Below are positions 4,712 through 29,754 of a stretch of DNA of 64,000 bases, piece by piece. The first letter of the stretch is position 1. Every line of letters begins with the position of its first letter. Source of the DNA: a bacterium (GTDB lineage: Bacteria > Cyanobacteriota > Vampirovibrionia > Gastranaerophilales > Gastranaerophilaceae). The position numbers were made by a program, and so were the translations under genes. The notes beneath the pieces were generated by a model, which saw only the letters and a program-made list of their open reading frames with translations, searched no databases and had not been told where the DNA came from. The stretch covers positions 1 to 64,000 of the forward strand of contig JAFUXT010000020.1 of the NCBI GenBank assembly GCA_017470815.1, read 5' to 3'.

Positions 4712-5437
4712 ATGAGAGTTATAAAACTTGAGGAGACACAATCCACCAATAATTATGCAAAAGAGCATATTACCCTGCTTGAAGACAGGAGTATTGTGCA
4801 TGCCCTTCGTCAGACAAACGGCAGAGGCAGACTAAATCGCACATGGGTTGATTTAGGAGATAATAACTTATTCTTCTCTATTGTTTTAAAACCGTCAAAT
4901 GCGTTTTGCCCCGTTTATTCAAATCTTACCCAATACGCATCAGTTATTTTATGCAAAATTTTTGAAAATTACGGGTTAAACCCGAAAGTCAAATGGCCAA
5001 ATGATGTTATGATTGACGGATTGCGTAAGATTTGCGGAATTTTATGTGAAACAGTTATAGAAAATAACGAACTCAAAGGAATAATTTTAGGTATCGGGAT
5101 AAATTTAAACGCATCAAAAAAAGATGTTGAAAATATTCCCGACAGAGTTGTTACCGCACTTAATCTTGAAATCGGTAAAAGCGTAAATTCCGAAGCGTTT
5201 TTAGATGAATTTTTAACCGAATTTTTCAAATCTTATGATGAATTTTTATCAAAAGGTTTTGAATATATAATGAATGATTACATTAAAAGAAATTGCTTTC
5301 TTGAAAAAGATTTGAATGTTCAGGTTCTAAACAGCGTAAAATCCGGCTATGCAAAAGGAATCAACAATAACGGTGAACTGATTTTGCAAACGGAAGATAA
5401 TAAAGATTTGATATTAAACATAGGAGATATATTATGA
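4712..5437 (+). CDS. birA: Biotin--protein ligase (BirA catalytic domain, no HTH)
   Basis: This cytoplasmic enzyme activates biotin with ATP and attaches it to a lysine of a biotin carrier domain. The 241-residue protein has the biotin-binding GRGR motif in QTNGRGRLNRTW (near residue 36) and the KWPNDVM block followed by KICGIL. It lacks the N-terminal helix-turn-helix of regulatory BirA, so it should be a class I ligase without repressor function. Its stop overlaps the oadG start (ATGA at 5434-5437), placing it at the head of the oxaloacetate decarboxylase operon. The carrier domain of OadA, encoded two genes downstream, is the obvious substrate. A TATAAT box lies at 4672-4677. Confidence 0.95.
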   Translation: MRVIKLEETQSTNNYAKEHITLLEDRSIVHALRQTNGRGRLNRTWVDLGDNNLFFSIVLKPSNAFCPVYSNLTQYASVILCKIFENYGLNPKVKWPNDVMIDGLRKICGILCETVIENNELKGIILGIGINLNASKKDVENIPDRVVTALNLEIGKSVNSEAFLDEFLTEFFKSYDEFLSKGFEYIMNDYIKRNCFLEKDLNVQVLNSVKSGYAKGINNNGELILQTEDNKDLILNIGDIL

Positions 5438-11615: not shown

Positions 11616-12338
11616 TTACATATCAACATCGATTTGTGAATCTAAAATATCGCTTTGCCCGACACTTTTTGCCTTCTCGATAGGCACAGGCGCTTTCGTA
11701 ACTGAAGGTGCTGTTGCGACAAATTTTGGAACAATATTAATTTTGGGTATGTCAACAACCGCTTGCTGAGACTGAACCTGAGCAACCTGTGATGTTTGAA
11801 CGGATGCCTGTTTTTGCTTTTGTTCCGATAATTGTTTTTTCGCTTTTTGTGCTTTGTTGTATGCAACTATTGCCGGATCTGTGTGAGCCTTTAAGTAATA
11901 ATAATCAGACATTATCAGAGATACAAATCTTTTTGTTTCCCTGAACGGAGGTATGGCATTGTATTTTTTTACATTTGCCGGACCTGCATTGTAAGCGGCT
12001 ACTGCAAGTTCCATTGAACCAAACATCTTATACATTGATTTGTAATACATAATCCCTGCTTTGATGTTGTCGTCAAGTGAATAAGGATTCAAACCCATTC
12101 TTCTTGCAGTCGATGGTAATAATTGAAATACTCCGACTGCACCGTGACTGCTTCTGGTTTCATGTCTGAAACCTGATTCTGCTTTTGCGATGCTGAGTGT
12201 AATTGCGGGGTCAACCCCCATTTCGACAGAATACTTGACTATTGCCGCTTTCACCGTATCCACACTGGCCGCATCCGCTTGTGAAAATAACATTAAAACC
12301 AATGCTACGGCTAAGAGTAATAATTTTTTTAAAGTCAA
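11616..12338 (-). CDS. Lytic murein transglycosylase (SLT domain), secreted
   Basis: This envelope enzyme cleaves peptidoglycan glycan strands to 1,6-anhydro products. The 240-residue protein has a signal peptide (MTLKKLLLLAVALVLMLFSQ, cleavage near ADA) and a Slt70-type domain at about residues 25-145 with the catalytic Glu in IAKAESGF, GAVGVFQLLPSTA, and AVAAYNAGPANV. The C-terminal tail from about 165 is Gln-, Lys- and Val-rich, low in complexity and without a domain. GAGGA precedes the start. The 248-bp gap upstream (12339-12586) shows no gene. Confidence 0.93.
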   Translation of the reverse strand: MTLKKLLLLAVALVLMLFSQADAASVDTVKAAIVKYSVEMGVDPAITLSIAKAESGFRHETRSSHGAVGVFQLLPSTARRMGLNPYSLDDNIKAGIMYYKSMYKMFGSMELAVAAYNAGPANVKKYNAIPPFRETKRFVSLIMSDYYYLKAHTDPAIVAYNKAQKAKKQLSEQKQKQASVQTSQVAQVQSQQAVVDIPKINIVPKFVATAPSVTKAPVPIEKAKSVGQSDILDSQIDVDM

Positions 12339-12586: not shown

Positions 12587-13357
12587 TTATTTTAGCGATG
12601 AAAAATTTTCTTTAAATTTATATTTTTTGTCATGTATATCATAGGAATAGATTTTATATTTATGTCCGTCTGTTGAAATTTTTATTGAATTGAGCAAATC
12701 TGTTCTTAAAATTTCGGTATTGCGCAAAGTATCCAAAGTTCCCTTATTGGGGTGTCCAAAAGTATTTATTCCTGTCGAAATAAGGGAAATTTTATTGTCC
12801 AAATATTCAATCATTTCTTTATTCACCACATTCGGACCGCCATGATGTCCGACTTTCAGTATCTCAATGTTATTACGAATATAAGGTTTAATTTGGTCAA
12901 AAGCATCAACACCTGCATCTCCCATAAAAAGCATATCGAAATTTTTGTAAGACAAAAGTGTAATAATTGAGCATCCGTTACTCTCATCTTTCCCTTTAAT
13001 ATCAGCCTTATAGGTATAGATTTTTAAATCCGGTTCTTCGTAAATCAATTTATTGTTTTTTGCAATTTCCCATTTTTGTTTATTTTCCTTTGCCGTTTTG
13101 AATATACTGACAGCCGTTTGTGTTTCTGTTTTTGTGCTGTTTAGATAAAGTTTTTTAACCTTTGTATTTGTTATAAATTCCGGAGTTCCGCCTGAGTGGT
13201 CGTTATCAAAGTGTGTAACGATAAGCCCTTCGATATTTTTTATTCCGTTATCTTTAAGGTATTTAAGCATAATAATTTTAGCCTGCGAATTTCCGCTTTG
13301 ATAAGATTTTTTGCCCGTATCAATAAAGAAATATTTATTTTGAGGCGTTTTAATCAT
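12587..13357 (-). CDS. ComEC C-terminal metallo-beta-lactamase-fold part, separated by in-frame stop
   Basis: The 256 residues from the first ATG contain the MBL-fold metal motif THFDNDHSGG, HHGGP and TGxNTFGHP, in the form found in the C-terminal domain of ComEC. The reading frame is open upstream of this ATG for another 30 codons to a TGA at 13448-13450. Those codons encode the end of a membrane helix and the first strand of the domain, with FDVGNADSF matching the family's DVGQGD motif. Starting at the ATG would cut off this strand, so the ATG is probably not a natural gene start. No Shine-Dalgarno sequence precedes it. In intact ComEC this domain is thought to process incoming single-stranded DNA. 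Confidence 0.8.
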   Translation of the reverse strand: MIKTPQNKYFFIDTGKKSYQSGNSQAKIIMLKYLKDNGIKNIEGLIVTHFDNDHSGGTPEFITNTKVKKLYLNSTKTETQTAVSIFKTAKENKQKWEIAKNNKLIYEEPDLKIYTYKADIKGKDESNGCSIITLLSYKNFDMLFMGDAGVDAFDQIKPYIRNNIEILKVGHHGGPNVVNKEMIEYLDNKISLISTGINTFGHPNKGTLDTLRNTEILRTDLLNSIKISTDGHKYKIYSYDIHDKKYKFKENFSSLK

Positions 13358-13447
13358 AAAACTGTCAGCATTACCGACATCAAAAGCGATAACCTCAAGA
13401 TTTTTATTTGGGATGCTTATTGTAGATACAAGTAAAACTGAAGAAAT

Positions 13448-15028
13448 TCAAACAACAGTAATAAAAGCCTTTTTATATTTGTTATATTTAACAAGTAATG
13501 AAGCACAAATAAGCATAATATAATATATTGTTATTTGTATAATATTCGGATGTGTAGTTTGGATAAGACTGTGAGGCAAGTTACCAAAGAAATCAGAAAT
13601 TACAATAAGTGTGCTTATCAGATAATTGTTGATAAAATCAAAAATCATGCATACAATATCCGCAACAGGCTTAAATATCGCAAGAACAGAACTTATAAAC
13701 CCCGTAAAACTTATAACAATCAAAAGAATTGAAGATGTAATATTTGCAAGAATAGAGTACAAACTGAAAGTATTAAAATAAAACATTTGAATCGGAGCAA
13801 CCCAAATTTGAGCAACAATTGGAATTAATATAAGTGATGTAATTTTATCAGGTACATTGTCCCATTTTTTTATGATAATGTTTGCCGTAAACAAAAGCCC
13901 GAAAGTCACAAGGAACGACAGTTGAAATCCAACATCATTTATATAAGCCGGATTATATAGAAGCATAAGAATTGCAACAAAAGACAAAAGGGAAATTGAA
14001 TGAGTATCTCTGTCTATGAGTTTTCCCGTAAGTACAAATAAAAGCATTAAAGATGCCCTTACAACCGAGGCTCCAAGCCCTGTCATTAAAGTATAACCGA
14101 TAACAAGAAACATTCCTGATATAACTTTTGGTTTATAGGGAACTCTGAAAAATGTCATTATGAAAAACCAAAATGAGAAAATAAATCCGACATTCATTCC
14201 TGATGCCGCAAGAATATGCAGCAAACCCGAATTTATAAACGAGTTTTTAATGTAATCAGGCGGAGCAACAGCGTCATCTCCGAAAACTATTCCGCCCAAT
14301 ATTTCTAAATTCGGGGTTTTAAGATATTTTGAGTGAGTTTTAAGTACGAAATTTCTGATATTATTCAGGTCATATAAAAATTTCCATTTAGGACTCATTT
14401 TCTCGTTGTGAATTTTTAAATTCTCACCTGTTGAATAAATAACCGTAAAAACTCCATAGTTTTTAAGATATGAACTGTAATCAAACTGTGACGGGTTTGT
14501 TGACCTGAATGGTTGTCTTAAATTCCCTTTTATTGTAATTTTTTGTCCTATATTAAGTTGTGAAATGTCATTTTCATCTGCTTTAACAGTTAAAAGCGTT
14601 TTACCATTAACCACATTATTTCCCGCTTTTTCGACATTAAAGAAAAATTTTGCTTTACCTTTTTCCGCACTGTTTGGAATACTTGCTATTTGACCGTAAA
14701 AATCTGTATTCAACGGGGCAAGACTTATAAGAGCATCAGAATTTTTTACCCTTAAAATGGTAATCGCAAAACCAAAATAAAATATTAAGGCAAAAATTAA
14801 AACCCTTTTTATATCAAATATTCTCGTGATAAGCAAAATGCAAAGAATAACTGTAATAATGCTTGCACTTAGCAATTCTTTTTGCGAAAAATATGACATA
14901 ATCCCGCACATAAAGAACAGCGAAGCCCCGCACATTACAAAATTTCTGTTTTGTAATAAATCGTTTATTTTATCCCTGTCAAACATAATTCCAACGGATA
15001 AATGATAACATAAAATAATCTTGTGCAA
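13448..15028 (-). CDS. comEC: ComEC/Rec2 DNA uptake channel, N-terminal membrane part ending at premature TGA
   Basis: ComEC forms the inner-membrane channel for single-stranded DNA in natural competence. These 526 residues hold the N-terminal DUF4131 soluble region (about 85-210, with an OB-like part) and the multi-helix Competence domain with LHILAASGMNVGFIF, corresponding to the family's HLLAISGxH motif. The ORF ends in KAFITVV and TGA inside what should be the last membrane helix; the same frame then continues into an MBL domain. A complete ComEC would be about 810 codons here. Met15 (14986) is a possible alternative start. It is divergent from pilT, another competence and pilus gene. Confidence 0.88.
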   Translation of the reverse strand: MHKIILCYHLSVGIMFDRDKINDLLQNRNFVMCGASLFFMCGIMSYFSQKELLSASIITVILCILLITRIFDIKRVLIFALIFYFGFAITILRVKNSDALISLAPLNTDFYGQIASIPNSAEKGKAKFFFNVEKAGNNVVNGKTLLTVKADENDISQLNIGQKITIKGNLRQPFRSTNPSQFDYSSYLKNYGVFTVIYSTGENLKIHNEKMSPKWKFLYDLNNIRNFVLKTHSKYLKTPNLEILGGIVFGDDAVAPPDYIKNSFINSGLLHILAASGMNVGFIFSFWFFIMTFFRVPYKPKVISGMFLVIGYTLMTGLGASVVRASLMLLFVLTGKLIDRDTHSISLLSFVAILMLLYNPAYINDVGFQLSFLVTFGLLFTANIIIKKWDNVPDKITSLILIPIVAQIWVAPIQMFYFNTFSLYSILANITSSILLIVISFTGFISSVLAIFKPVADIVCMIFDFINNYLISTLIVISDFFGNLPHSLIQTTHPNIIQITIYYIMLICASLLVKYNKYKKAFITVV

Positions 15029-15109: not shown

Positions 15110-16216
15110 ATGGGCGATTCAACTCCTTTTTATATAGATGATTTTTTAAGACAGGCTGTCACTGTCGGGGCTTCAGATATTCACCTTATGGTAGGGGAAC
15201 GTCCTGCAATAAGAGTTGCCGGTCAAATTATGAGGATAAATCTTCCGCCATTAACAGAAGATGATTTGATGCAGACCATAGATAAAATTTCACCGGAACA
15301 CTTAAAAGACAGAATTTCAAGATTTTTTGATATTGATTTTTCTTATGAAATCCCAAAATTTTCGAGATTCAGGGTTAATTTAAGCCATCAACTCGCAAAA
15401 AATGCTATTGTATTCAGGGTAATTCCGTATTACATAAAATCATTTGAGGAACTTAATCTGCCTAAAACAATAGAGAATTTTGCAGATTTTAATAACGGTA
15501 TAGTCTTGATTACAGGTCCGACAGGTTCGGGTAAATCTACAACAATAGCATCTTTGATTGATTATATTAACGAAAAATATGCAAAACATATTGTTACAAT
15601 CGAAGATCCTGTCGAATTTATTTATACAAATAAAAAATCAATTGTTTCGCAAAGACAATTGCTGATTGATACCCCTTCATTCACAGACGGTATTAAATAT
15701 GCACTTAGACAAGACCCTGATGTAATCTTTATCGGGGAAATTCGTGACAGAGAAACAGTTGAGGCGGCTTTAAATGCGGCAGAAACAGGACACATGGTTG
15801 TATCAACAATACATACTAATGATGCGGTTCAAACAGTTAACAGAATTGTAAACTTCTTTGAGCCCTCAGAAAGAAATTTTGTAAGACAGCAACTTTCAAA
15901 TACTCTAAGAGGAACAATAGCACAAAAACTTGTTCCGACCGTTGATGCTGATACACGGCTTCCTGCACCTGAAATACTTGTTGTCACTCCACCTGTAATT
16001 GATTTTATTGCAAAAGATGAACTTGAAAGAGTATATGAACTTGTAAAACAGGGTTCATATAATAACATGGTTACAATGAACATGTCTTTATACAAATTGT
16101 ATGAAGAAGGTCATATAACAAAAGAAACCGCCCTTTATTATTCCGATGCGAAATCGGAACTTGAACAAATGATAAGGGGTGTTTATCACGGGACAGGAGT
16201 AAATAATAAAATTTAA
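15110..16216 (+). CDS. pilT: Type IV pilus retraction ATPase PilT
   Basis: This cytoplasmic hexameric ATPase depolymerises type IV pili for twitching and DNA uptake. The 368-residue protein has the N-terminal ASDIHL motif (21-26), Walker A GPTGSGKST (136-144), the Asp-box TIEDPVEF, Walker B region VIFIGEIRD (205-213) and the His-box GHMVVSTIHTNDA. Length is normal for PilT and too short for the assembly ATPase PilB. Ribosome-binding site AAGAGG precedes the ATG. It is divergent from comEC, and recO follows after 23 bp. PilT paralogs such as PilU share these motifs and cannot be excluded. Confidence 0.92.
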   Translation: MGDSTPFYIDDFLRQAVTVGASDIHLMVGERPAIRVAGQIMRINLPPLTEDDLMQTIDKISPEHLKDRISRFFDIDFSYEIPKFSRFRVNLSHQLAKNAIVFRVIPYYIKSFEELNLPKTIENFADFNNGIVLITGPTGSGKSTTIASLIDYINEKYAKHIVTIEDPVEFIYTNKKSIVSQRQLLIDTPSFTDGIKYALRQDPDVIFIGEIRDRETVEAALNAAETGHMVVSTIHTNDAVQTVNRIVNFFEPSERNFVRQQLSNTLRGTIAQKLVPTVDADTRLPAPEILVVTPPVIDFIAKDELERVYELVKQGSYNNMVTMNMSLYKLYEEGHITKETALYYSDAKSELEQMIRGVYHGTGVNNKI

Positions 16217-27058: not shown

Positions 27059-28168
27059 TTAAGGGAAATAATATTTTTGGGTTTCTTTATATTTTAAATT
27101 CTTAAAAAACATTTTTCCTGCAATAGTCGGATTAAGTTGTTCAACATTTTTAATGTCAAATGTAATTCGATTGTCTTTTTCCGAACAATGCTTTAAATAC
27201 ACGAAAAATAACGGATTGATTTTATAGCCTGATATTTTTCCGTTTCCCCCTCGTTCCTTTCTTGTTGCTAAATTATTAATGGGGATTGTAACTTTGTCAT
27301 TGTCAAATATTGCCCCCATTTCTTTTAGAAAATTCTTAAGTGCAACAGGTGTCCAGACTTTATAATGATTTCTTCCTGCAGGTCGTATTTCTCCTTCTAT
27401 ATCAGCCCAAAGTGAAATTTGATTTGCTGGAAGCATTACCAAATATCCGTTTTTATCTTCGGTACAAATCACATCTGCGTATTTTTTAGTGTAATTATGC
27501 GATATTGCAATATCAATACTTTCTTTAGTGAAATTGTGAACATTATTACCCATAACATCAAAGAAATTCAGTCCTGTTTGCTCTTTTAACATTTCTTTAA
27601 ACTGAGGATATTTTTCCAAAAAATCTTTTGTAATTCTTAAATTTCCATCTTCCATATATTTTGGTAAATCAGGCTCGCTTGTTTTTGCCCCCGGTTCTTT
27701 AAATTCAATCGTATAAATGTTTAAATCTAATACCGTAATCAATGCACTGTCAATTCCGTTGCAACCGCCAGCCTGAATTAAAATTCGACTTTTGTTATTA
27801 TTTGAATAAGCATATCTTGGGAATAAATGATAGGATTTTAGTAAACTTAAAATGTCATCAGGTAAAAAAGAATCATTTGTTGTGCAATTTACAAACTCTT
27901 TTAAATCAAGCATATTTGCGAAAGTTTGAGCATAAACACATTCACTAAAAACTGCAGATTGAATATTGTTTCCGTTTTCATAACTTTTTAAAATTTGATG
28001 AGCAAGGGCAGGGCATTTAGATTCAATATTTTTTATATCAATAACTCCTTTAGATGTAGCCATTTTCCATAATTTAGAGCGCTCTTTTTTATCAAAAATT
28101 ACTTTAGTGGGAGTTATAGAATAAAATTCTTCCATTATTTCTTTTTGTAATTTACTTAAAGGAATCAT
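27059..28168 (-). CDS. Predicted type II restriction endonuclease (PD-(D/E)XK)
   Basis: The 369-residue protein is encoded directly after a DNA adenine methyltransferase, with an ATGA overlap and a GGAGGTGA ribosome-binding site, the usual layout of a type II system. A plausible PD-(D/E)XK core is GIDSALITVLD...YTIEFKE, with Asp140, Glu155 and Lys157. The rest of the protein is unfamiliar and the cut site cannot be predicted. Its function is inferred mainly from the partner gene. Its 3' end abuts the trhA stop with one base between. Confidence 0.78.
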   Translation of the reverse strand: MIPLSKLQKEIMEEFYSITPTKVIFDKKERSKLWKMATSKGVIDIKNIESKCPALAHQILKSYENGNNIQSAVFSECVYAQTFANMLDLKEFVNCTTNDSFLPDDILSLLKSYHLFPRYAYSNNNKSRILIQAGGCNGIDSALITVLDLNIYTIEFKEPGAKTSEPDLPKYMEDGNLRITKDFLEKYPQFKEMLKEQTGLNFFDVMGNNVHNFTKESIDIAISHNYTKKYADVICTEDKNGYLVMLPANQISLWADIEGEIRPAGRNHYKVWTPVALKNFLKEMGAIFDNDKVTIPINNLATRKERGGNGKISGYKINPLFFVYLKHCSEKDNRITFDIKNVEQLNPTIAGKMFFKNLKYKETQKYYFP

Positions 28169-29754
28169 ACATTCACCTCCAAAGCCATGTTTGAATGTAC
28201 TAAATCCAATATTTTCTCATCCTCATTTATATTTAATATTTTAAATATTCTTTTATTGATTTTATCCCTGTACTGTCGTGGAAATTTGATATTTTCCTGC
28301 GTGCCCACATTATTTTTTTTGATTATGAATTTCTCCGCATTGAGAATCATTTCATTTGTAATATTGTCAAAGAAAATATAATCTTCTTCTGTTAAAAGAT
28401 CAAAAAATACGGGCATACATAATAAAAGATTTTTTGGGTATGTAATACCGCCGTCATAAATTCTCCAATGCCAATAGGCAAAAGATGAATTTATAAGGCA
28501 ATAAATGAAATTAAATATTTTTTTATCTTCAAAATTTAATGTAATTTGACCGCTTCGATTCATTTTTTTATCAGAAGCCGTTGTGTAATATCTGCAAGTA
28601 TTTGGCATTGATATAACATATTTGCCATCCGATTTTATGTAGTCTGATAATATTTTTCCATTACTTAAATTTTTCCATTTTTCAAAAATTTCGTTTAATT
28701 CTTTATGGCATTTAAAAAACATAGAATTATTTTTATCGACAATTTGAAAGGTCGGATTTATAAAGTTTTCTAATGCAGAGCATGTGAGTAAATTTTTTCT
28801 TTCTGTTTGTTTAAACCTGATAAGTGGTGAAAACTGAAAACCTTTGTTATTATTTTTTTGTAATACAGTAATTGCGGCTCTGACTGAATTTGAGGTATTT
28901 GAATTAAATATTCCATGCTTTCTTCCGTTAAAAATATTACCGGGGACATTATCAAAAGACACAACAAATCCGCAATATTCGCTCATTATTTGTCTTAAAG
29001 AATAAAATTTTCCGCCGGATATGAAACTAAATGGGGATATTGTAACAGCACTTTTGCATTGTTTAAATATTTTAGCCATAAAAGATGCGTAGTATTCCAT
29101 AGTATCTTTTATAACTGAGGAACTTTCCCATTTATCCGAAATTTGTTTTATTTTTGCATAAGGCGGATTAGATATTACTTTGCTATTTTGAGGTAATGTC
29201 ACTGACTTATCTAAAAAATCGCATAAAACAATATTTAATTTTGAAACTATATCAAAACCGTATTTCATGCCAATAGCGGTTTTGCATATATTAAGAGCCG
29301 TTTTGTCATTGTCATATAAATAAATATTCCCATTTGAAATAAGGTCTTTTGCCTTTTCAATACCAATAAAATCTAAATAGGATAAGATAAGGTTTCCTGT
29401 TCCGCAACCGACATCACATATATTATCCCCTTCGGTTTGGGATAGCCATTCGGACATAACTCTTGCTACATCTTCAGGAGTATAATATTGTCCGCTATTC
29501 TTTTTAGAAATTTTATCGTCGGTAGAAAGTCCTATTTCATATAATTCACCCAAATTTCCAACGGATAATATTTCCGGAAGATTATCCGGATTATTTTTTA
29601 TAAATTGGCAAATGTTATTCCAAGTTTCGTCCAATCCTTTTGATTTAATATCATTTATATAAATGTCTAATGTATAATACTGCAACTTACTGTTATAATT
29701 TTCAGAAGTTATAACATCAAATATATTCAATTGTTCATTTGCTATATTTAGCAT
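28165..29754 (-). CDS. N6-adenine DNA methyltransferase of a second type II R-M system
   Basis: The 529-residue enzyme has SGQYYTP (87-93) as in gamma-type adenine methyltransferases, SAM motif I ICDVGCGTGN (112-121) and the catalytic motif ISNPPYAKI with NPPY at 196-199. The C-terminal half (about 330-520) should hold target recognition. It methylates adenine in an unknown site to protect the host. It overlaps the nuclease gene by four bases and is probably transcribed first, which lets methylation precede cleavage. No SD is obvious at its start. Confidence 0.92.
   Translation of the reverse strand: MLNIANEQLNIFDVITSENYNSKLQYYTLDIYINDIKSKGLDETWNNICQFIKNNPDNLPEILSVGNLGELYEIGLSTDDKISKKNSGQYYTPEDVARVMSEWLSQTEGDNICDVGCGTGNLILSYLDFIGIEKAKDLISNGNIYLYDNDKTALNICKTAIGMKYGFDIVSKLNIVLCDFLDKSVTLPQNSKVISNPPYAKIKQISDKWESSSVIKDTMEYYASFMAKIFKQCKSAVTISPFSFISGGKFYSLRQIMSEYCGFVVSFDNVPGNIFNGRKHGIFNSNTSNSVRAAITVLQKNNNKGFQFSPLIRFKQTERKNLLTCSALENFINPTFQIVDKNNSMFFKCHKELNEIFEKWKNLSNGKILSDYIKSDGKYVISMPNTCRYYTTASDKKMNRSGQITLNFEDKKIFNFIYCLINSSFAYWHWRIYDGGITYPKNLLLCMPVFFDLLTEEDYIFFDNITNEMILNAEKFIIKKNNVGTQENIKFPRQYRDKINKRIFKILNINEDEKILDLVHSNMALEVNV

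Follow-up and report, generated by a model that had tools for sequence, protein, structure and literature searches.

The analysed window (64,000 nucleotides, positions 1 to 64,000 of contig JAFUXT010000020.1, assembly GCA_017470815.1) carries on its minus strand a comEC gene whose frame is open from an ATG at 14986 to a TAA at 12587-12589, apart from a single in-frame TGA at 13448-13450, as a first-pass annotation of this DNA had described. On the minus strand the letters around the stop are GTT GTT TGA ATT TCT TCA (TGA at 13450-13448), and from stop to stop the frame comprises 843 codons, with this one TGA only. In the list of open reading frames the gene appears as two entries, 13448-15028 with a TTG start (526 aa) and 12587-13357 with an ATG start (256 aa), which agrees with the 30 sense codons previously counted from the TGA to the next ATG at 13357. 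The earlier statement that no ATG lies within these 30 codons can be extended, as in-frame GTG and TTG codons are absent from them too.

The 5′ part of the gene (13451-14986, minus strand; 512 aa from the ATG at 14986, extended by the ORF tool to the TTG at 15028) encodes the OB-like domain DUF4131 (PF13567, 38-187, E 2.4e-19) and the membrane channel domain Competence (PF03772, 234-498, E 3.1e-52). The 3′ part, in the same frame (12587-13447, minus strand), encodes a metallo-beta-lactamase (MBL) domain (Lactamase_B in Pfam), in which the motifs THFDNDHSGG, GDAG and GHHGG are retained, preceded by the final portion of the last hydrophobic helix. The hydrophobic run AFITVV*ISSVLLVSTIS is consistent with a stop position inside the last membrane helix. 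Divergent to comEC lies an intact pilT-like gene for a pilus retraction ATPase (15110-16216, plus strand, 368 aa, 97.8% identity to the sister genome G020), already noted as intact in the first reading of the window. A lytic-transglycosylase-like gene is located immediately downstream of comEC (11616-12338, minus strand), its first listed start being a TTG. The promoter and terminator scan gave results at chance level.

The combination of DUF4131, Competence and Lactamase_B is known as the DCL profile of ComEC/Rec2 (PMC6299819), with which the locus shares the three domains, their order and the MBL metal motifs, and from which it differs by the one TGA that interrupts the frame between its Competence and Lactamase_B domains. 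Both domains of ComEC/Rec2 proteins in general, Competence and DUF4131, were found; of the form with a nuclease domain, the MBL domain is present but the continuous frame is not, being interrupted at 13448-13450. Identity to the intact ComEC/Rec2 proteins of the genus was 60-90%.

comEC in related genomes

The window's assembly is a draft with a total length of 2.24 Mb, divided into 83 contigs, and its estimated contamination is 7.29%. The comparison set consisted of 46 genomes of the genus and 383 of the family, the named relatives including rumen and gut MAGs (RUG13741, RUG12020, RUG12313) labelled Gastranaerophilales or Melainabacteria. A comEC gene was present in 45 of the 46 genus genomes, with a single copy in the window's assembly; G022, which is ~97% complete, was the sole genome without a match. 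The internal stop was absent from 44 of these 45 genes and occurred as TGA in the window's genome only. Over its full length the joined protein can be aligned with the 44 unbroken ComEC proteins of the genus, and a lone stop within ~800 otherwise conserved codons is no chance reading of non-coding DNA.

The first-pass annotation had proposed an alignment with close relatives and had named two separate genes in all of them as the arrangement that would speak against a broken gene. All 44 intact genomes had one fused frame and none had comEC as two genes; genomes in g3, g21, g36, g37 and g41 for which the alignment fell into two pieces also had a single open frame, of 813-884 codons. Among the family matches listed (comEC matched in 374 of the 383 genomes, i.e., it is kept almost universally in the clade), none had the same stop, and the other internal stops examined there were situated at the extreme C-terminus in G059 and G109 and at a contig edge in G254. 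Because no examined relative has the stop or two genes, the stop is, on this comparison, a derived state of the window's genome.

At the stop site the two nearest relatives (90% and 89% protein identity) have a cysteine codon (TGC and TGT) and the third-nearest a serine codon (TCA). Across 84 homologues the residue varies between I, S, V, C, T, A, L, G or F, plus a single M and a single K, and the site is thus a variable hydrophobic or small position at which no particular residue is needed.

Meaning of the TGA codon

The cysteine of the nearest relatives could suggest that the TGA is decoded as an amino acid, either as selenocysteine or through an altered code, but cysteine is not conserved across the 84 homologues and the genome offers no means for such a reading. 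All 45 tRNAs found in it were read with ARAGORN, and none had a UCA anticodon, the single tRNA-Trp having CCA. Neither SelB nor tRNA-Sec was found in the window's genome (the best matches were EF-Tu and tRNA-Ser, respectively), and selenocysteine was ruled out on these grounds. Moreover, the conserved genes at 4712-5437 and 28165-29754 end in TGA at the position where their G020 counterparts end, and comEC of G020 itself has TGA as its natural terminator. Neither mark of a TGA-recoded genome, i.e., a UGA-reading tRNA and the absence of TGA as a terminator, was thus observed, and a changed code or a suppressor tRNA was ruled out by the anticodons together with the TGA-terminated conserved genes. 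The code change that had earlier been called unlikely is excluded, TGA is a true stop here, and decoding as an amino acid retains next to no probability.

Constraint after the stop

Codon comparisons were carried out with G020, G023 and G021. Between the comEC of the window and these relatives dN/dS was 0.056-0.081 after the stop and 0.067-0.089 before it, and between intact relatives it was 0.046-0.073 after the stop position. Lineage-specific amino-acid changes numbered 13-15 after the stop (vs. 8-9 in relatives) and 26-27 before it (vs. 10-12 in relatives); as the contrast is larger before the stop, an acceleration peculiar to the MBL part is not apparent in these alignments. In a rough Poisson calculation ~23 replacement changes were expected and 25 observed, with an unconstrained share of at least 5% of the branch being rejected (P 0.009), so that the unconstrained part of the branch leading to the window's lineage would amount to at most ~5%. 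As the constraint after the stop resembles that of intact relatives, the stop is either very recent, still polymorphic or a consensus error, or else the region downstream of it is still translated.

The last of these options would involve leaky readthrough of the TGA or re-initiation behind it, either of which would give a certain amount of ComEC, full-length or in two pieces. The normal constraint after the stop fits with this, and UGA is the leakiest of the stop codons; on the other side, no relative has the stop or a split gene, no tRNA with a UCA anticodon is available for readthrough, and no ATG, GTG or TTG precedes 13357. The MBL domain of ComEC is extracellular (PMC8579336), and a restarted one without the preceding helices and their anchor would end up on the wrong side of the membrane. 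Because of the missing start codon and the loss of the membrane anchor, re-initiation is unlikely, and for the ATT at 13447, which the first-pass annotation had put forward as a start, nothing was found in favour. Readthrough and re-initiation taken together are improbable as the cause, and a narrower version, with a real TGA that has become fixed in the species and a little full-length ComEC arising by leaky readthrough as a dial on DNA uptake, is more improbable still. Of the four causes originally listed, a recent loss or a base error fits best, given the fused gene in relatives and the constraint kept after the stop.

A probable recent nonsense allele, with a base error as the main rival

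The most likely explanation is a very recent knock-out mutation or an assembly base error, in either case nothing out of the ordinary for a known gene. The main rival to a recent nonsense allele is an error in the consensus, with the true comEC being intact and the TGA representing a miscalled base or a mixture of strains in a metagenome-derived draft. The lack of any decay after the stop, its occurrence in one draft genome out of 46 and the estimated contamination level of the assembly all speak for such an error, and the window's species is represented by one draft consensus, in which a base error or a minority variant would look like a real mutation. Against it, no other broken gene was seen in the window between 3149 and 52980 compared with G020, and over these ~48 kb the local consensus is thus not error-rich; in addition, real strains often carry nonsense mutations of recent origin. 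We consider an assembly error possible, although less likely, and infer a real base. These comparisons probably reflect a nonsense change of one base, confined to the window's genome, in a comEC that is fused and otherwise normal.

If real, the nonsense allele would be very recent or still polymorphic. Translation would end within the last hydrophobic run, and truncation after the Competence domain would remove the tail of the last helix together with the whole extracellular MBL nuclease domain, leaving a product with the OB-like and channel domains only. In Bacillus subtilis, loss of ComEC abolishes transformation (PMC12455585), and disabling the MBL metal site lowers it 10- to 100-fold without eliminating it (PMC8579336). 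By analogy with the latter effect, truncation of ComEC would be expected to strongly reduce or abolish DNA uptake. Some channel function could perhaps be kept, as the MBL domain is missing from almost half of the ComEC proteins in sequenced genomes (PMC8579336). The predicted product shares its layout with the DC-profile competence proteins, which consist of DUF4131 and Competence only (PMC6299819), but here this layout would arise through a nonsense mutation that also cuts the last helix, and not through an established loss of a domain.

Broken competence genes, i.e., nonsense or pseudogene com alleles, are known from single strains, and the present case resembles them in that one genome is hit and its relatives are intact, with no difference apparent. 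If real, the allele would offer a snapshot of competence loss in one lineage of Gastranaerophilales (Melainabacteria). A direct literature search found no publication on comEC in Melainabacteria or on transformation in Gastranaerophilales, and the near-universal retention of a constrained comEC in the clade tells more than the single stop.

Other competence genes and a variable region

DprA, like pilT, is intact in the window's genome; that pili may be kept while uptake is lost is a suggestion of the first-pass annotation. The nearest relatives encode an HhH protein of 311-313 aa (L201:9706-10647 and L202:9155-10090) that contains a hydrophobic segment near its N-terminus and an HhH_3 domain at its C-terminus. 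It is a possible ComEA stand-in, and its gene adjoins an AAA+ ATPase and a gene resembling radical-SAM activases. Proteins with an HhH_3 domain above the cut-off occurred in 35 of the 46 genus genomes. Neither the HhH protein nor its whole 6-kb neighbourhood was found in the window's assembly, and because the entire neighbourhood is missing an assembly gap is more likely than gene loss; the absence was therefore rejected as a second sign of competence loss.

Most other genes that the window shares with G020 had 80-99% identity to it. Between 35301 and 39863 a run of ORFs is located, several of which match the same relatives' proteins at only 26-55% identity, and this stretch looks like a variable island formed by a duplicated gene family.
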